DNA from: a virus
Length of the DNA: 22,722 nucleotides
Virus record (IMG/VR): IMGVR_UViG_3300035698_013801
Span: 1 to 22,722 of that record
Direction: 5' to 3' (one strand)
Both the position numbers and the translations under genes were made by a program. Numbering within the stretch: the stretch's first letter is position 1; the number at the start of each line of letters is the position of its first letter. Below the pieces are notes generated by a model, which was not told the origin of the DNA, searched no databases, and saw only the letters and a list, made by a program, of their open reading frames with translations. Shown in pieces: positions 6,316 through 22,722 of the stretch.

Positions 6316-6735
6316 CTAAGAAACTAATAACATGTAAGGGAAAAATAAATCATACTTCTGCGGAGGGACAAGAGTTACCATACCCTCTGAATCCGTACCT
6401 CCTGCGTAACGGACATTGAGTAAGGCAGTGTTAGTACCGTTACCCAAGTCAACACCTGTTACAGCAGATATAGTGAAGCGATTCTTTTGGAATTTAACGT
6501 AATCCTCTAACCACTCCCTAAAATCCTCACCATCGTATGAAGCTAAATTCTTCATCACCAATTCCCCATATATTTTCGTAGGCCCAGAATCATAAACTTT
6601 TTCTGTACCATCTGAAATATCTAGTTTGAATTGATTCAATCTTTTCTTCCAGAACTGTGTACCATATACTATACTACCTGTTATAGTAAGACTGGTAGTA
6701 ATATTATCTGTTATTGTAAAAGTAACTGTACTCAT
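6316..6735 (-). CDS. Small tail protein, possible distal tail component (139 aa)
   Basis: The 139-residue protein is beta-rich at the N-terminus (Thr/Ile alternation over residues 1-25) and contains a Trp-Lys-Lys-Arg segment, a central helical stretch (Glu-Asp-Phe-Arg-Glu-Trp-Leu-Glu-Asp) and a hydrophobic C-terminus. It lies between the tape measure and the probable hub, where siphoviruses encode distal tail or minor tail proteins (lambda gpM/gpL). Its ATG overlaps the tape measure stop as ATGA, and the GAGGAG site sits inside that gene. The assignment to a distal tail ring is positional only. Confidence 0.6.
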   Translation of the reverse strand: MSTVTFTITDNITTSLTITGSIVYGTQFWKKRLNQFKLDISDGTEKVYDSGPTKIYGELVMKNLASYDGEDFREWLEDYVKFQKNRFTISAVTGVDLGNGTNTALLNVRYAGGTDSEGMVTLVPPQKYDLFFPYMLLVS

Positions 6736-9317
6736 CTATTTAACTCCTCGTGTATAACAGGCATTACATTATCCCTTACAAACTCCTCAGTCCCTATTAC
6801 ATTTTGAAATACTATACTGCTACCTCCACCCTTCATAGGTTTACCTCTATCTAACGCTTGAGCTATAGCTTCATCACCACCGAGTTTTTGAACTTGATAC
6901 CGACTCAACACATGTTCTCCCGCAGATAGATTGTATAGATTGCTATCAGATGTTGCATTCCCATTACCTTGGATAGGTCCATTACTACCTTCACGTAATG
7001 AGGATAAAGCTGAAGCTGCACTAATTACCTGAGCAGTATATGCAGCAGCTATAGCTCCAATAGCTATACCGGCTATTATCCTTGTTGCAGGTCCACCTGT
7101 TGTTTGTGCAACAGTATTTACAACAGCTAAAACAGCACTCATTGTCGCCGTAGCTATAGCCATAGCAGCATCAAGTTTAGCTTGCTTTTTCTTAGCTTCT
7201 TCAATCTTTTTCTCTTGCACTAGCTTTTGAGCTGTATACTTTTTTTCAAGTTTTATTTTTCTACGTTTAGAAATACCATCTTTACTTATCTCTCTCTGAT
7301 ACTTAGCATCAATCATTGCCATCTCTTGTTGATACTGAGATATCTTTTTACCAAAAGCAGCATCAGATATTGCAGAAGCAATATCATTAGCTCCCTGAGC
7401 AGCCTCCATTATACCAGACATCATATCTATTTTGTATTGGGTCTGCTCAGCGTAAGCATCCTTTAACGCTTTAGTATTTGCTAGAAGTTCGTTATCTAAT
7501 GTAAGTAAACGTTCCTTGAGCGTTATACTTGTCTGCTCTAAGTCGTTTATCTCTTTTTTCTCAGCACGAACCATAGCAGCATCAAATTGTTTTACCTTCA
7601 ATACTTTTGCTGCTGCTGCTGCTTTTGCTGCTGCTGCTGCTGCTTTTGATGCTACTGCTGCTGCTTCTGCTGCAGCTTTTGCAGCTTTTGCAGCTTTTTC
7701 TTGTTGGATTGATAGAGCTAAAGCTTTAGCGAGAGTTTCAGAATCTGTACCAGTACCAGTACCAGCACCAGTACCTCCATCACTTTCACTACCTGCTCTA
7801 GATTTTACTCCATATTTTACTGTGGATAAAGTATTGCTAGTAGCTTTGGCATCTGCTTCTCTACCTTTACCGGTAAAAATAAAGCTTGAAGCTGTTTCCT
7901 TATACGTTTTTTTATACTGCTTTGTGGCTTCGGCTAAAGCGTGCCCAGCTTTTTTCATACCTTCCATTGGAGCAGCAAAAAACTTACCTCTGCTTTCATC
8001 CGCCCATTCAGCTCTAGCTTTACCCAATTCTTTTCTAAGTTTAACTATATTCTCTATGTCTTTAACATTTTGCTCAGTGTAATATTTTGAAGCAGATACA
8101 CCCTTCATCTCTATATTCATATTGAAAAGACTAGCTAAACTAGTTACCATTTTACCAACCATTTTAGACGCTAATAAAGCAGAATCAGCTAAAATTTCTA
8201 TTAGTAAACCAGTTGTTCTTATACCATCTTGATTGTTATCTACCCAGGTGTCAAGATCCCTAAAGGAATCAGTTAATGAAGTTATAAAATCTTTAGGGCG
8301 ATTACCAAAAGCATCAGCTATGCTGAGACTTACTTCATTCAAAACAGATATCATTATCTTCCATCTATTTTCAAGTGAATCACGCATTTCATCTGCCATA
8401 GATTTAGCATTTACTGTACTATCTCTTAATTCTTTTGAAAGAGCTTTTACTTTACTAGACATATTTGATACAACAGTTGCACCTATAACTGCACGTTTAT
8501 TGAACTGCTCCAGATTATCTTTTACTTTAAACCCTTTATCTTTGAGAGCTTTCAATACATCAACTAAGCTCATGCCAGTTAAATCCATATCTTTCAAAGC
8601 TGCAGAAGTTGCGGAGGTAGGCTTGAGTAACTGAGTTAACATGTTCTTAAGATTTGTACCTGCAAGACTTCCTTCTATACCACTATCCGCTAGAATACCT
8701 AATATAGCAGCTACTTCTTCCAACTCCTCGCCAAGTTGAGAAGCAACAGGTCCAGTATGTTTTAAAGATCCCATGAACGTATCTAAAGTTAATTTAGTGT
8801 TCACTAAAGCTTTTGCTGTTACATTTACAGCTCTAAGCGGTTTAACACCAAATTGATTCATTACTGTCAATACAGCATCAGCTGTTTCCCCTAAGCTATT
8901 ACCTGAAGCTGTAGCTAAATCCATAGACTTATCTAACAAACTTATAGCTTTCTTACCTCTAGCTCCACCCTTGGTAATTAAAAGCATAGCCTCTGCAACA
9001 GTTGTTGCAGTAAACTCTGTACGCGCAGCCATGTTACGCAACTCTTTATTTAAACCAGAGATATCTCCTTTAAGCTGACCTATAGCCTTTACACGAGTTA
9101 TAGCATGTTCGAATTTAACTACTTGCGTTACTGCATTCCGTAAATTATTTATTAAGAAATGCAATCCTTTATACACACCAACAACAGCAAAAGCTTTCTT
9201 TAAGGTATCACCAAGACCTTTAACTTTCTTACCTGTCTTACGTGATGCTTTACCTATTTGCTCTATACGTTCTCTACCTTTGTCATCAATGGTAGTTCTT
9301 ATTACTATATCTGACAT
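6732..9317 (-). CDS. Tail tape measure protein (TP901-type)
   Basis: An 861-residue protein that sets tail length and is held in the tube lumen. The N-terminal third (about residues 70-310) has the TP901-type tape measure core: Ala-Ala-Arg-Thr-Glu-Phe-Thr-Ala near 97, a Met-Asn-Gln-Phe-Gly-Val motif near 153, and Asp-Ser-Gly-Ile-Glu-Gly-Ser-Leu-Ala-Gly-Thr-Asn-Leu near 212. The middle is helical, with an Ala/Lys coiled coil encoded by GCA/GCT repeats at about residues 539-572, preceded by a Gly-Thr linker. A hydrophobic Ala/Ile/Val segment lies at ~712-765, as in other tape measures that may cross the host membrane. The start lies 4 nt after the stop of the frameshifted chaperone extension, matching the G-GT-H order in lambda. 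Confidence 0.93.
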   Translation of the reverse strand: MSDIVIRTTIDDKGRERIEQIGKASRKTGKKVKGLGDTLKKAFAVVGVYKGLHFLINNLRNAVTQVVKFEHAITRVKAIGQLKGDISGLNKELRNMAARTEFTATTVAEAMLLITKGGARGKKAISLLDKSMDLATASGNSLGETADAVLTVMNQFGVKPLRAVNVTAKALVNTKLTLDTFMGSLKHTGPVASQLGEELEEVAAILGILADSGIEGSLAGTNLKNMLTQLLKPTSATSAALKDMDLTGMSLVDVLKALKDKGFKVKDNLEQFNKRAVIGATVVSNMSSKVKALSKELRDSTVNAKSMADEMRDSLENRWKIMISVLNEVSLSIADAFGNRPKDFITSLTDSFRDLDTWVDNNQDGIRTTGLLIEILADSALLASKMVGKMVTSLASLFNMNIEMKGVSASKYYTEQNVKDIENIVKLRKELGKARAEWADESRGKFFAAPMEGMKKAGHALAEATKQYKKTYKETASSFIFTGKGREADAKATSNTLSTVKYGVKSRAGSESDGGTGAGTGTGTDSETLAKALALSIQQEKAAKAAKAAAEAAAVASKAAAAAAKAAAAAKVLKVKQFDAAMVRAEKKEINDLEQTSITLKERLLTLDNELLANTKALKDAYAEQTQYKIDMMSGIMEAAQGANDIASAISDAAFGKKISQYQQEMAMIDAKYQREISKDGISKRRKIKLEKKYTAQKLVQEKKIEEAKKKQAKLDAAMAIATATMSAVLAVVNTVAQTTGGPATRIIAGIAIGAIAAAYTAQVISAASALSSLREGSNGPIQGNGNATSDSNLYNLSAGEHVLSRYQVQKLGGDEAIAQALDRGKPMKGGGSSIVFQNVIGTEEFVRDNVMPVIHEELNR

Positions 9318-9321
9318 ACTG

Positions 9322-10070
9322 TTAGCCTTTCAGGTTGACTCTGTCTACCTCTCTTTTGCGTTCCACATATACCACATGATTTTTTCTAGAAAGAAAATAA
9401 GACATAGTACTCCAAAAAGTAACTGGGTTAGCATAATCTATTTGCATATCTTCTATTATCATACCCGCTGCAGAAATTGTAAAATAGCCATTTGCGTCAA
9501 GAGGTGAACAAGCTATGATTAAAGTAAATATTTCCCATAACTTAGGTAACTCAGTATACCTAACCAAGTAACATAAATCCACCTCATGGTTATCTGTATA
9601 TGGACAAATACAGGAGCTCCCATCTGAGCTCCTTGCTTTGTAAGTCTGGCAGGATAGGCATTTTGATGGATGCCATTTCCAGTCAATAGTGGCATCACAC
9701 CAGACTATTAGTTTTTTGTATCAACTCCCATATACGCAACTAGGATTTTTTGTAGTAAACCTTCTTTCCCTAGTACAAAACTGAAAATAAGTTTTCTATC
9801 TACCTCTGAATCAACACTAAATAAATTACCATCTTCATCTACTATACCTTCAACACGTGACAAGCAAGAGCATACTTTAAGTAACATAGCACTTGATTCC
9901 TCATCCTCTTCTAATTCCTTTGCTGTCTTACTTTCTACCTTCTCTTTCATTTTGATAAGTTCGCCAATTTGATCAACAAATAATGGAAACTCAAAAAACA
10001 ATGAAAACTGGTCATCATTTTCTTTATACATTATTTCTATCTCACGATTTTTCTTTACTATAAAAGCCAT
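9322..10070 (-). CDS. Frameshifted tail assembly chaperone GT (249 aa)
   Basis: Predicted -1 frameshift product. The 120-aa upstream reading frame ends ACA AAA AAC TAA; slipping back one base on A AAA AAC makes the next codon CTA, and that frame stays open for 129 codons, to a stop just before the tape measure. No start with a good ribosome binding site exists for the downstream part: it has only a weak GTG at 9582 that would cut off its first 43 residues. In lambda and many long-tailed phages the G and GT products coat the tape measure and recruit tube subunits. The extension begins with a Cys-rich segment (C-x12-C-x2-C-x12-C-x-C) that could bind zinc. The frame was checked codon by codon from 9711 to 9583. 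Confidence 0.85.
9708..10070 (-). CDS. Tail assembly chaperone, G-like (120 aa)
   Basis: The unshifted product, 120 residues, acidic and helical, with a cluster around Lys-Glu-Leu-Glu-Glu-Asp-Glu-Glu near residue 53. It lies between the tube protein and the tape measure, the place of lambda gpG. The ATG follows GGAGGAAC. The gene ends in a canonical slippery heptamer immediately before TAA, so most ribosomes should stop here and a minority make the 249-aa fusion. Sequence similarity to gpG is not obvious, as is usual for these fast-evolving chaperones; context and the frameshift site carry the assignment. Confidence 0.82.
   Translation of the reverse strand: MAFIVKKNREIEIMYKENDDQFSLFFEFPLFVDQIGELIKMKEKVESKTAKELEEDEESSAMLLKVCSCLSRVEGIVDEDGNLFSVDSEVDRKLIFSFVLGKEGLLQKILVAYMGVDTKN
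9711..9729 (-). promoter_or_regulatory. Programmed -1 ribosomal frameshift site
   Basis: The heptamer A AAA AAC (9717-9711) lies in the zero frame as X XXY YYZ directly before the TAA stop. GGGAG (9729-9725) lies 7 nt upstream and could pair with the 16S rRNA tail, as the internal Shine-Dalgarno of E. coli dnaX does. Downstream, GATGCCA (9696-9690) and TGGCATC (9675-9669) form a 7-bp stem with a 14-nt loop starting 14 nt after the heptamer. A second, perfect 8-bp stem, AGGAGCTC / GAGCTCCT, lies at 9633-9612. Confidence 0.85.
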
Positions 10071-10096: not shown

Positions 10097-11491
10097 TTAT
10101 CTAATAAACATCGGGTTAACCGAGTTCAAATTACGAGTTCTCATTACCATAGGTCCACCTTGTATTGTATCTACACCTTCTAATATATTTGCAACTTTAG
10201 TGTAAGAAGTACTGAATCCAGTTTTAAGTATTAACACCTCTTTTGCTACATCACTGTCATCAGGACCTCCATCTGTAATTATAGCATCAGCTATAATAAA
10301 TTCCAACATATAAGAATTACCATCATCAGCTAAGTACTCTGCAAAAATACGAGCAGTTACCTCACTGAAGGAATCCCGCAATGCTTGAAAAGTTTCTGAA
10401 GAGTATCTTGACAATGTAATAGTAGCCGATACCTCATACTTACCTTCAAAACATGGTTCAGTTAAGTATAAACCGCTAACAGTATCTTGCACTTTTTGAA
10501 GAGGTATACTACATTCTATTGACACATCAGTAGCTGCTAAAGATACATAACTAGCATCAGTTGTGCCAAACTGTATACCAATCTGGTGATGGGCAGGTAT
10601 AAATTCATTATCTACCACATCAGAACTAGGAGTCCATGCTGAAGAGGAATAATCACCCCTTTCTTCGCCACGTCCAACTAATTTAACAGACAAAGTAGAT
10701 AATCCTGCTGCTTGACTAGTGAAGGTAAACCCTTGACACATAGAATTTTTGTACCTATGATCAACAGTGCCTAAAGCTATACCAAAAGTAGCAGATCTAT
10801 TTTTCTTATCCCCTATAGAGTATAAAGACGTATGTAATGTCTTTTCAGCAGTAGTATAATCCGCTATTTCTCTAGTTAATGCATCCAATTCATAAGTAGA
10901 CTCATACATAACATCAGCACTACATGAATCATAAGTTATGTTATCATCAGATATATTATATAATGTACCTCCAGTAGCACCACCTACAGGTATCAAAATA
11001 GAATCCGTTAAACCAAAAATGTAATAAGTGTTTATACCATTAATTTCTTTTCTTAAATACTCAAATGAGTTACCACTACTTGCTGCTACATCTGTGTATA
11101 AAAAACCGGTACCTCCATTAGATGCTAAATTAGCTATACTGGTAGTGTCAGTTATAACTACAGCTATAGTAGGTACAATAGTGTTTACAAATCCAAAAAT
11201 AACATACCAAAGTTTATCAATACCCTTAAATCTAGGATGCAGAGATATTTCATATTCAGACATTTTACTTATTTGTCTAGGTAAAGCTTTAAAGCCATTA
11301 GATACAATAGTATTATCTTCAGTAGATCCTATAGTAAAATTCTTACCAAACGAAAGATAAGGTAATAAATCACCTGCGCCAAGAGTAGCTGCAGAGGTAG
11401 ATCCTCCCCAACCATCTGTTGTAGCTATATTTTCTGTAAGGCCATCCTCTAACTCCATTGCAGCATTTTGCAACACCTTAACACTTGCCAT
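10097..11491 (-). CDS. Tail tube protein paralogue B (464 aa)
   Basis: The 464-residue protein lies just before the G/GT chaperones, where lambda has its tube protein gpV, so it is probably a tail tube or tube-related subunit. It shares with the preceding gene a C-terminal pattern Arg-Tyr-Ser-x-Glu-Thr-Phe-Gln-x2-Arg-Asp, then a Tyr-x2-Asp, a Thr-Asp-x4-Asp and a terminal Gly-x4-Tyr region, so the two are paralogues. It is longer than typical tube proteins, partly because of an insert of about 100 residues around 110-210 that is Thr/Gly-rich, possibly an outward domain. GGAGGTAA precedes the ATG. Which paralogue forms most of the tube cannot be told from the sequence. Confidence 0.75.
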   Translation of the reverse strand: MASVKVLQNAAMELEDGLTENIATTDGWGGSTSAATLGAGDLLPYLSFGKNFTIGSTEDNTIVSNGFKALPRQISKMSEYEISLHPRFKGIDKLWYVIFGFVNTIVPTIAVVITDTTSIANLASNGGTGFLYTDVAASSGNSFEYLRKEINGINTYYIFGLTDSILIPVGGATGGTLYNISDDNITYDSCSADVMYESTYELDALTREIADYTTAEKTLHTSLYSIGDKKNRSATFGIALGTVDHRYKNSMCQGFTFTSQAAGLSTLSVKLVGRGEERGDYSSSAWTPSSDVVDNEFIPAHHQIGIQFGTTDASYVSLAATDVSIECSIPLQKVQDTVSGLYLTEPCFEGKYEVSATITLSRYSSETFQALRDSFSEVTARIFAEYLADDGNSYMLEFIIADAIITDGGPDDSDVAKEVLILKTGFSTSYTKVANILEGVDTIQGGPMVMRTRNLNSVNPMFIR

Positions 11492-11510: not shown

Positions 11511-12497
11511 TTAGTTAGTTAATATCATCTTAATAGGCGACCAGAAAGTCATATTACTATTTACATAGGTAGTGTTTATACCATTTCTACCAACACTAAC
11601 TGTAATATCCTGACCTGTAATATCATCATCTGTTAAATTAGCATCCAGAACTACATTAGGAAATTGTATTTTTAAAGCATTTGTTGCATCTGAGTACAAA
11701 TACAATTCTATTTGAAGTTTTGTCCAATCATCGCGATAATTCTGAAAAGTTTCAGCACTGTATCGTGGTATTTTAAATGATAAAGAAACAGAAGGTCTAC
11801 CACCACCTGCGAAAAGAGGAGTAAGGATACCTCTACTATTGTATCTTTGATCACTGTATCCAGTGATTATCTCTATCTCAAAAGATTCAATGTTTAAATC
11901 ATCTCCAGAATCCAAAGCAGCTGATTGAGGGCCAATTCTGAAATAACCATTAGTACCACCAAGGTTAGGGAAAGTGAGAGGTTGTTTTGGTACTTCACCA
12001 TAAGTTGCTTTGAAAGAAGTTGGAAAAGCAGAGGTAGCAGCTCTAACTTGAGTAGTCATAGCTGTAACATCTATAGCACTTTTTATAATATCGTTAACAC
12101 CACCAGATATCTTTAAAGATTTAGGATATATATTAGCGTACTGTAAGCAGTTCACAGAATTTAGTATAGCCAAAGACAATCCAGTTGTTTCATCTCTTTC
12201 AGTTTCAAATCTAAAATTAGTATATTCAGTATCCGCTTGATCAAAAATCATTTGCAACCAAGGTAAACTAGAATATACATCTAAATTTGTATCTATAGAC
12301 CCTTCTTGAGTAAGATTACCTTGAAGAGGTAAGTTCATAAATGGATTACCAAAAATGCTCTCATCAGCAATTGGATCATATTTTTTAGAGGTACCATCTG
12401 ATAAGAACGGTACAGTGAAAAAATCTGTAGTCATAAAAGCTGTTGCAGCTTGTCTAGCTACAGCCATCTTTTTTAAAACTTTAACAGTGCTACTCAT
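11511..12497 (-). CDS. Tail tube protein paralogue A (328 aa)
   Basis: The 328-residue protein is paralogous to the next gene downstream. Both begin with Val-Lys-Val-Leu and carry the same C-terminal block, here RYSAETFQNYRDDW near residue 240. The strand-rich composition and place between the gpU-position protein and the chaperones suit a tail tube or a related ring protein. The ATG overlaps the previous stop as ATGA, with GGAGA a few bases upstream. One paralogue may build the tube and the other a terminal ring, or both may alternate; this is inference. Confidence 0.75.
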   Translation of the reverse strand: MSSTVKVLKKMAVARQAATAFMTTDFFTVPFLSDGTSKKYDPIADESIFGNPFMNLPLQGNLTQEGSIDTNLDVYSSLPWLQMIFDQADTEYTNFRFETERDETTGLSLAILNSVNCLQYANIYPKSLKISGGVNDIIKSAIDVTAMTTQVRAATSAFPTSFKATYGEVPKQPLTFPNLGGTNGYFRIGPQSAALDSGDDLNIESFEIEIITGYSDQRYNSRGILTPLFAGGGRPSVSLSFKIPRYSAETFQNYRDDWTKLQIELYLYSDATNALKIQFPNVVLDANLTDDDITGQDITVSVGRNGINTTYVNSNMTFWSPIKMILTN

Positions 12498-18898: not shown

Positions 18899-19131
18899 TA
18901 GCAACCTCCTATTGATTGAAATATATCACCATCTTCTACACCTAAAGCTTCTTGATCCGCCATACGTTTTAGATAAGAAGTGAATTTAGGAATCTCACTA
19001 CCTACAGAAATATACGTTGTACGCATCTCTCTTGCATTCTCAACAGATGCTGTGAAAAATGATTCAATACGTTTTTCTGAAACTGCATTGAGCCATTTTA
19101 GATACATATCTGCCCATGTTGTCCATGCCAT
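18898..19131 (-). CDS. gpW-like head-tail joining protein
   Basis: A 77-residue protein between the large terminase and portal genes, exactly where lambda has gpW (68 aa), which binds the portal after packaging and prepares the head for tail joining. It is a small, mostly helical protein with an exposed-strand segment, Thr-Thr-Tyr-Ile-Ser-Val-Gly-Ser-Glu-Ile-Pro, before a second helix Phe-Thr-Ser-Tyr-Leu-Lys-Arg-Met, the order of elements expected for the gpW fold. The start ATG 19131 overlaps the terminase stop as TAATG. A TTG three codons upstream lies almost on the ribosome binding site, so it was rejected. Confidence 0.75.
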   Translation of the reverse strand: MAWTTWADMYLKWLNAVSEKRIESFFTASVENAREMRTTYISVGSEIPKFTSYLKRMADQEALGVEDGDIFQSIGGC

Positions 19132-21020
19132 TAAATCCAATCCTCTCTGCTGTCTACAAAATTTTCATATATATCATTTGAATTTGAATTTGCTGGATTG
19201 ACTCCTATATTACTAGTATCAACCTTAGCAGCACTGGCAACTAACGGGTTACAAACGAAACCTTCTTTTTCTATTTCGTGTCGTAATATACCTCTGTCAG
19301 TCGGCACATCTAAACAAATATATGTATGAATATCCGCATAGCGAAAATCATTTTGACCTGCTTTTTTCCAGATGATTTTTTCCTCACCTGTCTTTTTATT
19401 TTGTTCCTTGACTTTTCTAACATTACAAAATTGATTACAATAATCATTACTGACATCCATAGGTAATTGAAATTGCCTAGTGTCACACGTTTCTTCAGTC
19501 TCTGCAAGATACTCACATGTTCTAACTAAATACAGATCCAATTCTTTATTGTAGGTATAACGTGTAGGCTGCCTATCCTGACCTTTTACCATAAAAATTC
19601 TAGGTATACCAAAAATGGCGGCATAGAGTTCTTTAGTTCTATGTCCACCAGTATCTATTGCTAAGTAGGATACTCCCCATCCATGTTTAAGTCCTATAAA
19701 TGTACGTTCAAAAATATCTTTCATTATTTTTAAAATATCATCACGAGATGCAATATGCATTGAGCATGGTTTGAACTCTTCATCTATTAAACAAGTAAGT
19801 CTATTGGCTCCAAAACCTCGATAAACAACATAGAAACCATTATCCTGAGTATCTATACCTGCTGTTATAACTTTTACACCTTCTGGTACATCACCTTTAC
19901 GATAGCCTCTACGTTGATCTTTAAGTTTAAGTGAAGACGTTTTACTTATATCATCTACCCAAAAACTAGCTCTCCAACATTGAACATAATTTTTATAATC
20001 ATGTAGTTTATCTTTTACCTCTATATACTTATTAGCTATACGTGTAAAACTACGAAATGGAGAAACCATTGAGTTCCACCAGAATATCTCACGATCAGTA
20101 CGATCATTATTTTCATACCAATTAGATGGATTATTACATTCTGAAGCTCTCCAATGTCCATCCTGTTCTTTAATCATCCTAATATATAAACCATGTATAT
20201 TCCAATCCTTTTTCCTATTCAGATTGGAGAACTCAGCACCGCAGGATTGACATAAGCATTTACGTTTTTTTAAATGTTTCCTATCATCCAATAACTGAAT
20301 TTCACCACAACTCTGGCACTTAGAATGCCACATCCATACACTTGTGAAAGGTACGTCCAGTTGATTGAATAATAAATCTCCTTCAACTGAAGGCGAACTA
20401 ACTAAATAAGCTTGAGCTAAACCCCACTCTAAATAGGTAGTTAATCTATCCTCTATTAGTTGGATTGCATTAGATTCGTTACCTGTCGTTAGTGGCAATA
20501 GCCTAGCCTCATCAACTGCCGCACGCTTACGAGGTATAGATGACATTGTTGATAATGATCCACCCCATGCAAGCGCAATATTCATATTCTTTAAATTTAC
20601 TTCAGCCTTATTGACATCCCTGACATGTCCAGTTTTATGGATAGCCATCTCTGGAGTGTTTTCCAGTACATCAATAAGTTTTTCCTGTACAAGTTTCCTA
20701 CCCATCTTTTCATCAGGTAGTAACCAGATCATTGGACCTGGATCTTGTATCACAGTATCAGCAAAAGCAGTCTGTAAGAAAACAGTCTTACCCGATTGCG
20801 TTGGCGCTACACACATAATCCATTTTACTCTAGTGTTGCCTATAAGTTTCATAGGAGCTTTTAAATACGGAGTTAAATCTAAATCAATCTTTTCAAGAAT
20901 GTTACCTTTCTGAGGTATCCTCAGCATCTCCGCTATTTCCGTAGCGGGAATCCTCTCTTGGATTTTCAACCAATTGAGTTCGTCTGAGCTTATTCTTATT
21001 TTCTTCTTCCCAGTTTGCAA
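19131..21020 (-). CDS. Terminase large subunit (GpA family)
   Basis: The packaging motor ATPase and nuclease, 629 residues (lambda gpA 641). Walker A is APTQSGKT at residues 72-79, Walker B ends in Val-Asp-Glu at 169-171, and a zinc ribbon with Cys235, Cys238, Cys257 and Cys260 follows. The RNase H-like nuclease has Asp390 in AGIDTQD, Asp456 in AIDTGG and Asp563 in the ADIHTY region. The start is taken as TTG 21020, because GGAGG lies 6 nt upstream and the first 50 residues (Arg-Ile-Pro ... Thr-Pro-Tyr-Leu) match the usual N-terminus of the family. This gives a 119-nt overlap with the small subunit. The next start, ATG 20927, has a poor site. Confidence 0.94.
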   Translation of the reverse strand: MQTGKKKIRISSDELNWLKIQERIPATEIAEMLRIPQKGNILEKIDLDLTPYLKAPMKLIGNTRVKWIMCVAPTQSGKTVFLQTAFADTVIQDPGPMIWLLPDEKMGRKLVQEKLIDVLENTPEMAIHKTGHVRDVNKAEVNLKNMNIALAWGGSLSTMSSIPRKRAAVDEARLLPLTTGNESNAIQLIEDRLTTYLEWGLAQAYLVSSPSVEGDLLFNQLDVPFTSVWMWHSKCQSCGEIQLLDDRKHLKKRKCLCQSCGAEFSNLNRKKDWNIHGLYIRMIKEQDGHWRASECNNPSNWYENNDRTDREIFWWNSMVSPFRSFTRIANKYIEVKDKLHDYKNYVQCWRASFWVDDISKTSSLKLKDQRRGYRKGDVPEGVKVITAGIDTQDNGFYVVYRGFGANRLTCLIDEEFKPCSMHIASRDDILKIMKDIFERTFIGLKHGWGVSYLAIDTGGHRTKELYAAIFGIPRIFMVKGQDRQPTRYTYNKELDLYLVRTCEYLAETEETCDTRQFQLPMDVSNDYCNQFCNVRKVKEQNKKTGEEKIIWKKAGQNDFRYADIHTYICLDVPTDRGILRHEIEKEGFVCNPLVASAAKVDTSNIGVNPANSNSNDIYENFVDSREDWI

Positions 21021-21777: not shown

Positions 21778-21839
21778 GACCTCTCCACTCTACCTACTGG
21801 ATGTTGACTCCATGACCTCTCCACTCTACCTACTGGATG
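21768..21839. repeat. Tandem 36-bp duplication spanning a start site
   Basis: Two perfect, adjacent 36-bp copies (21768-21803 and 21804-21839). Each carries the same Shine-Dalgarno and ATG of the 92-aa gene. As 36 is a multiple of three, the upper ATG lies in the same frame but meets TAG after seven codons (peptide MESTSSR), 12 nt before the true start. Confidence 0.95.
21790..21813 (-). other. Seven-codon upstream reading frame (MESTSSR)
   Basis: This mini reading frame arises from the upper copy of the tandem repeat. It has the same ribosome binding site as the real gene, starts 36 nt upstream and ends 12 nt before the real ATG. It could act as a leader peptide that delivers ribosomes to the true start by reinitiation, or simply be a by-product of a recent duplication. 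Confidence 0.45.
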
Positions 21840-21840
21840 T

Positions 21841-21850
21841 TGTGATCACA
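21841..21850. repeat. Perfect 10-bp palindrome in the late leader
   Basis: TGTGATCACA is fully self-complementary and lies between the late promoter and the first gene, next to a run of CA/GT dinucleotides. Its half-sites look like CRP half-sites, but the 6-bp spacer of a real CRP site is missing. It could be an operator or part of a packaging site. Confidence 0.5.
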
Positions 21851-21888
21851 CACAAACACACACACAAAAAAAACACTAGTTATAATAC

Positions 21889-21917
21889 AATATAGTTAAG
21901 GCACAACTAGATGTCAA
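21889..21917 (-). promoter_or_regulatory. Sigma70-type late promoter
   Basis: On the minus strand TTGACA (21917-21912, perfect -35) is followed after 17 bp by TATATT (21894-21889, 5 of 6 matches to the -10). Transcription should start near 21882 and read leftward into the 92-aa gene and the whole late region, about 105 bp of leader later. It is the only consensus-grade promoter I see upstream of the operon. Confidence 0.7.
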
Positions 21918-22722
21918 TAGTATATTTTTTTTTATTTATTTTTTAAAGTATGCTATTTATTTACAGTATAATACTTAAAAAAATTGATTTAAATGCTATA
22001 GAATGCAATAACTCTTTTATGGTACACTTGTATACTTAATTGAATTAAATATATTCACGCTACTTTAAAACACGTCTGAATTGGAATTAGATCATCTGCA
22101 AACAAATAGTAATTATAGCCTGAAAAAAATCCCAAAAACTACTAACTAACTAATACTATATATCCCTTTACTGTAGAAGGAAAAAAAAAAAAAAAAAATA
22201 TATATATAATAGAGGGTAATTTTGTATAAGTTAGTATTGTAGTACTGGATATTATAACACATTGATTTCAATGGATATACAGCAATCATATAATGTTGAT
22301 TTTTTCGAGAAATTAATACTCTAAGAAGTACTGTAAATGTAAGTGATTGATTTGACTATACTTACAAGAGTTGATTTTTTGGCTTATAGTACTTTTATAG
22401 TATTAATATTCTACTTTAAGTAAACACTGTATCTTGTTTAAAATCAATGACTTACAGCTATTGATATTTTGTGCGTACTCACATCTTTTAGTAGGTAGGG
22501 TTGAACGGTATAATAAATAATAATTTAATAGGGATTTAAATAAAAGAATAGGTATAAAATGTATAGATTATAAAGATAATTTAACTATATATTGACTTAT
22601 TTACATACAAATAGTACTAAATATAGCATAAAAAGACAACTATAGATAAACTGATTTTGTGTTGGCAGTAAGGGAATAGCACAACTGAAAAATAAAAATG
22701 CCGTTTTGAACGAACTCAATAC
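21918..22722. other. A+T-rich region without a convincing gene
   Basis: About 800 bp upstream of the late promoter holds no reading frame that looks like a gene on either strand. It contains an 18-A run at 22181-22198 followed by a TA run, four AGTACT palindromes (22241, 22327, 22388 and 22613), and GTTGATTTTTT twice (22295-22305 and 22370-22380, 75 bp apart). AGTAGGTAG at 22490-22498 repeats, inverted, a part of the tandem repeat near the first gene. No tRNA, CRISPR array or clear terminator was seen. It could be a control, replication or packaging region, or a boundary between gene modules. Confidence 0.6.

Follow-up and report, generated by a model that had tools for sequence, protein, structure and literature searches.

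Between the tail tube and tape measure genes of this virus lie two overlapping reading frames, and the question is whether they are joined by a -1 ribosomal frameshift and, if so, which elements could bring it about. The window, that is, the whole stretch of DNA analysed, is the IMG/VR virus record IMGVR_UViG_3300035698_013801 (positions 1 to 22,722; 22,722 bp). All of its main genes are on the minus strand, as are the genes and signal elements described below, and follow a lambda-like order: terminase large subunit, portal, major capsid, two tail proteins of the Phage_tube_2 type, G, T, and tape measure. For the junction of G and T, the initial annotation had proposed a dnaX-like -1 frameshift signal. 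The frameshift as such is supported by the conserved heptamer and the frames, and one mRNA very probably gives rise to both G (120 aa) and a G-T fusion (249 aa) by programmed -1 ribosomal frameshifting. Judged from sequence comparisons, the signal is predicted to be of the lambda G/GT type; it has a downstream stem reminiscent of dnaX and insertion-sequence (IS) signals and lacks a conserved Shine-Dalgarno element.

The tail tube-like gene upstream of G (10097 to 11491) is of the Phage_tube_2 type. It is adjoined by a second tail-tube-like gene (11511 to 12497), the two products being weakly similar to each other (29% over 89 aa), and the same pair is also found in several relatives. Elsewhere in the window, two tandem paralogous proteins, 39% identical and by eye resembling repeat or pectin-lyase-like proteins, are encoded at 958 to 2996, and the right end of the record (21778 to 22722) is AT-rich with long A and T runs and has no long minus-strand ORF.

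Overlapping frames and slippery heptamer

The G-like gene, a tail assembly chaperone ORF by its position between tube and tape measure genes and its homologues in 13 relatives, extends from 9708 to 10070 (120 codons) and is preceded by GGAGG. It ends with ACA AAA AAC TAA, and therefore the heptamer A_AAA_AAC (9711 to 9717) is in phase and the zero-frame stop codon TAA (9708 to 9710) abuts it, as had been annotated. The T-like frame (9322 to 9711), accessible by a -1 shift only, is open for 129 codons (9325 to 9711) and is closed by TAA (9322 to 9324), 4 nt ahead of the ATG at 9317 with which the tape measure gene (6732 to 9317) begins. Both the extent of this frame and the predicted fusion of 249 aa, likewise annotated before, were confirmed from the window. 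AAAAAAC occurs 13 times in this AT-rich record, against 6.9 expected, so it is not rare and the heptamer by itself proves little. It is the sole in-phase X_XXY_YYZ site within the 13-nt overlap of the zero and -1 frames in the window.

The comparison rests on 14 lineages, the window and 13 relatives. T as a query yielded L002 to L004, and the T alignment added L007/L008. With the neighbouring tail-tube gene as a query, L012, L013, L018, L049, L056, and a contig from a Bacteroidetes MAG (L042) were obtained; in the latter, T was located afterwards, once the tube gene had led there. Since these six relatives were reached through the tail-tube gene, neither T nor the heptamer played a part in their selection. 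A pattern built on the T motif, from which the heptamer and the 3' arm of the stem described below were excluded, added L021, L023, L026, and L028. The T-motif pattern scan gave no match outside the family, and a relaxed version applied to IMG/VR found no further relatives, so that the family appears saturated there. G as a single query found no relatives in IMG/VR, the T alignment had no matches among GTDB contigs, and fusion, T, and tube protein had none among annotated phages. In the 11 relatives aligned, T is 28-50% and G 22-34% identical to its counterpart in the window. The MAG relative (L042, L019) lies on a 48-kb contig. A search of 395 genomes of the Bacteroidetes phylum detected no relative other than this one MAG contig, and the single occurrence is therefore put down to either a rare prophage or an error in binning. 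L028 is on a 208-kb contig, which greatly exceeds those of the other relatives in size and possibly represents a provirus or a large phage.

In all 14 lineages, A_AAA_AAC is present in phase at the homologous G/T junction, and a TGG follows eight nt past it. Relatives retaining both frames but lacking the heptamer, which would have spoken against the frameshift, were looked for, and none was encountered among the 14 lineages. In the 12 lineages checked, the distance from the end of the T frame to the tape measure ATG is between -1 and +5 nt. The overlap of the two frames amounts to 13 nt in L049 and to 16 nt in L021. The stop-adjacent layout holds for the window but is not a general rule, as the position of the zero-frame stop codon is not conserved. 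It abuts the heptamer in four of the 14 lineages only (the window, L012, L023, and L056), is one codon past it in L018, L021, L028, and L049, eight codons past it in L003, L004, L007, and L026, and 32 and 41 codons past it in L013 and L042, respectively.

T could also be a separate gene with its own start, next to which the heptamer would be incidental. A late GTG at codon 43 past the slip point, before which no possible in-frame start exists in the window, would allow such a reading. In the relatives, the first possible start is at codon 8 or later, beyond the conserved WCD motif. In every lineage this motif directly follows the slip point and precedes any possible start, and the heptamer is kept in 14 out of 14; we give an independently initiated T next to no credence.

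A conserved stem downstream of the heptamer

The 14 sequences can be aligned without gaps from the heptamer to the codons for Cys-Gln (CQ) in T. Within this alignment an outer stem of about 11 bp, absent from the initial annotation, begins 4-5 nt past the heptamer. Its 11 pairs join alignment columns 13-23 with 64-74, corresponding in the window to 9705-9695 with 9654-9644. The 5' arm is located at 9695 to 9706 and the 3' arm at 9643 to 9654, on the codons of T residues C21-Q22. Nine contiguous pairs are formed in the window, between AGUCUGGUG (9706-9698) and UGCCAGACU (9651-9643).

Of the 14 lineages, 12 have kept the stem whole or almost whole, and 87% of the cells are paired over all 14. 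Changes on both sides that preserve pairing were observed at four positions: G-C, G-U, C-G, and A-U at pair 13/74; A-U, U-A, and G-C at pair 14/73; C-G, U-A, and G-C at pair 15/72; and U-A and C-G at pair 21/66. When the changes were placed on a protein tree built without the stem codons, in which some nodes are weakly supported, C-G at pair 21/66 occurred in three separated lineages (L003, L007, and L026), and U-A or G-C at pair 14/73 in at least two. The covariation score was 0.307, compared to 0.163 for shuffled alignments (none of 500 reached the observed value) and at most 0.082 for versions of the stem slid along the alignment. RNAalifold predicted the same outer stem unprompted.

As the stem region is coding, T was recoded synonymously as a control, with the protein fixed and the codon usage of each contig retained (2000 recodings, first run on 12 lineages). 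The recoded sequences had 112.0 pairs on average (sd 4.5, maximum 124), compared to 134 observed, a number not reached by any of the 2000 recodings. Fold energies combined to a Stouffer z of -9.9 relative to the synonymous recodings. Two lineages depart from the pattern: L042 does not have the outer stem but a different stem at the same place, and L056 shows a weak fold only, with no clear stem there. An Rfam search of the window gave no match at the gathering threshold, and none of note at the junction.

A 3' stem-loop a few nt downstream of the slippery site, as in dnaX, is thus present here. From its conservation and covariation, the outer stem is likely to be the stimulator of the frameshift. 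Since the 3' arm coincides with the conserved codons of C21-Q22, one stretch would both encode the Cys-rich head of T and form the stimulator.

The same elements bear on transcriptional slippage, by which the A run would generate a mixed mRNA population and hence the fusion without any slipping of the ribosome. Runs of 6-7 A are indeed found at the junction in the lineages, but RNA polymerase slippage usually takes place on runs of 8-9 or more, and the run is short by this measure. The final C of the heptamer and its phase are invariant, as codon re-pairing requires, and an mRNA stem past the run is conserved. Slippage of the polymerase is accordingly considered very improbable, and ribosomal frameshifting is the reading followed below.

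GGGAG and further hairpins

The initial annotation had ascribed the dnaX-like character of the signal to an internal Shine-Dalgarno sequence, GGGAG, together with the stop-adjacent heptamer and two stems, 14 and 78 nt downstream. Every one of these elements is present in the window. GGGAG (9725 to 9729, within ATG GGA GTT) ends 7 nt before the heptamer, and its pairing to the anti-Shine-Dalgarno sequence (-6.8 kcal/mol) is in the top 7% of in-phase sites of the window. The motif comprises, however, the codon for the glycine of a conserved AYxG motif. When pairing was compared to that of sites with Gly at the same codon, no enrichment was detected in the family (combined P 0.89), and a canonical or published stimulatory Shine-Dalgarno motif is found in six of 14 lineages only. 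An internal Shine-Dalgarno sequence about 10 nt upstream, as in dnaX, is not a consistent feature of the 14 lineages. In this comparison, GGGAG is a codon effect of the conserved glycine and not a conserved Shine-Dalgarno element.

The first of the two annotated stems, GATGCCA/TGGCATC (9669 to 9696), begins 14 nt past the heptamer and has its place in the loop of the outer stem. It can be formed in the window but is not conserved; 63% of its cells are paired, which is equal to shuffled sequences.

The second, a hairpin of 8 bp (9612 to 9633) annotated at about 78 nt and measured to begin 77 nt past the heptamer, fared differently. It is situated in an insertion of T, between the Cys pairs, which most relatives do not have. 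At the same place, the sister lineage L012 (tree support 0.96) has an insertion of its own with a longer hairpin of other sequence. Folding at this place exceeded synonymous chance in the window (z -4.2), L012 (z -4.6), and L021 (z -3.6), and in most lineages nothing strong was found. The hairpin is thus probably a real but clade-specific addition. A terminator scan flagged it, yet its T tract is interrupted, and the counterpart in L012 was not flagged.

In the sub-clade formed by the window and L012, the distal hairpin is predicted to begin one unpaired base past the proximal stem. A composite signal may be imagined for these two lineages, in which the proximal stem, the independently evolved second hairpin, and the stop-abutting heptamer together would tune the G:G-T ratio, the 3' arm also encoding the Cys-rich head of T; this is considered rather doubtful. 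The arrangement of the initial annotation, with GGGAG acting as the internal Shine-Dalgarno sequence, is considered improbable. The window's distal hairpin beyond synonymous chance speaks for it, as does the pairing strength of GGGAG, but that strength is explained by the glycine codon, the 14-nt stem is not conserved, the distal hairpin is confined to one sub-clade, and the distance to the stop codon varies from 0 to 41 codons.

Predicted function and comparison with known systems

T begins with the motif WCDATIDWxWxPSxCxxCQ, which contains conserved Cys residues. In its Cys cluster (9711 to 9601), C18, C21, and C36 are invariant and C5 is nearly so (12 sequences), which suggests a possible metal site. 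A CxxC...CxxC stretch (WHSKCQSCGE...CLCQSCGAEF) is also found in the terminase large subunit (19131 to 21020) and is superficially similar to WHPSKCLSCQ in the T motif. Searches with G and T against Pfam and PHROGs, singly and as aligned families, gave nothing convincing, and PDB sequences contained no match. The AlphaFold model of T (mean pLDDT 80.5) is helical and weak around the Cys residues; for G, the mean pLDDT was 75.8. A fold search of the PDB with both models yielded no significant match. Gene order and the frameshift, rather than homology, are therefore the grounds for the assignment as chaperones, and G and T are regarded as putative tail-assembly chaperones of a family unannotated in Pfam/PHROGs.

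Normal translation would produce G of 120 aa. On reaching A_AAA_AAC, the ribosome would run with its downstream edge into the RNA stem of about 11 bp, and the paused tRNAs on AAA-AAC could re-pair with AAA-AAA; T would then be translated and the G-T fusion of 249 aa be formed. In bacterial -1 signals, the structure is found 4-10 nt past the motif (PMC4066793), and the spacing of 4-5 nt fits this rule. The heptamer A_AAA_AAC slips far less readily in E. coli than A_AAA_AAG does (PMC5009743), and this would be in keeping with a requirement for a structure. In lambda, the tape measure is bound by G, and T brings in the tube protein (PMC5009743). By analogy, G would form a coat on the tape measure protein and the G-T fusion would bring in the tail tube protein, and production of the two, depending on the rate of slippage, would set the chaperone ratio.

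The kind of frameshifting is known from other phages, while this signal and protein family are new. No earlier description was found in the open-access literature, the key G/GT paper (Xu et al. 2004) being outside that scope. A family of tail-chaperone frameshifts missed by Pfam/PHROGs is thereby outlined, and its slippery site and covarying stem can be traced across deeply diverged phages. This makes it a clean comparative case of a weak bacterial heptamer, A_AAA_AAC, combined with a downstream structure and lacking an internal Shine-Dalgarno sequence. It also serves as a warning that what looks like a Shine-Dalgarno element in a single sequence can result from a codon effect. Annotation that takes no account of frames would overlook both the T frame and the 249-aa product.

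Among known systems, G/GT of lambda and its long-tailed phage relatives shares the gene order tube - G - T - tape measure, a -1 slip near the end of G, a T without its own start, and a fusion about twice the length of G. Of the lambda-type characteristics, two frames that overlap in the interval from the major tail protein gene to the tape measure gene, a conserved in-phase heptamer, and a startless T were found here. The locus differs by its A_AAA_AAC heptamer, the covarying 3' stem, the conserved Cys-rich motif at the start of T, and the lack of detectable homology to annotated chaperone families. It resembles dnaX of E. coli in that an A-rich heptamer is followed, after a few nt, by a stem of about 11 bp, the functional dnaX stem being 11 bp (PMC5009743). 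In contrast to dnaX, AAC replaces AAG in 14 of 14 lineages, no internal Shine-Dalgarno sequence is conserved, and the shift gives a longer instead of a shorter product. Transposase signals of the IS3/IS911 type also combine an A-rich heptamer with a stem 4-10 nt downstream, a branched or long loop, and a fusion product, but here the genes are phage tail genes without insertion-sequence context. For the haloarchaeal virus HCTV-2, a -1 G-T shift at A_AAA_AAC has been predicted in tail genes (PMC5009743); HCTV-2 is an archaeal virus, and the likeness lies in the heptamer and the tail-gene context.
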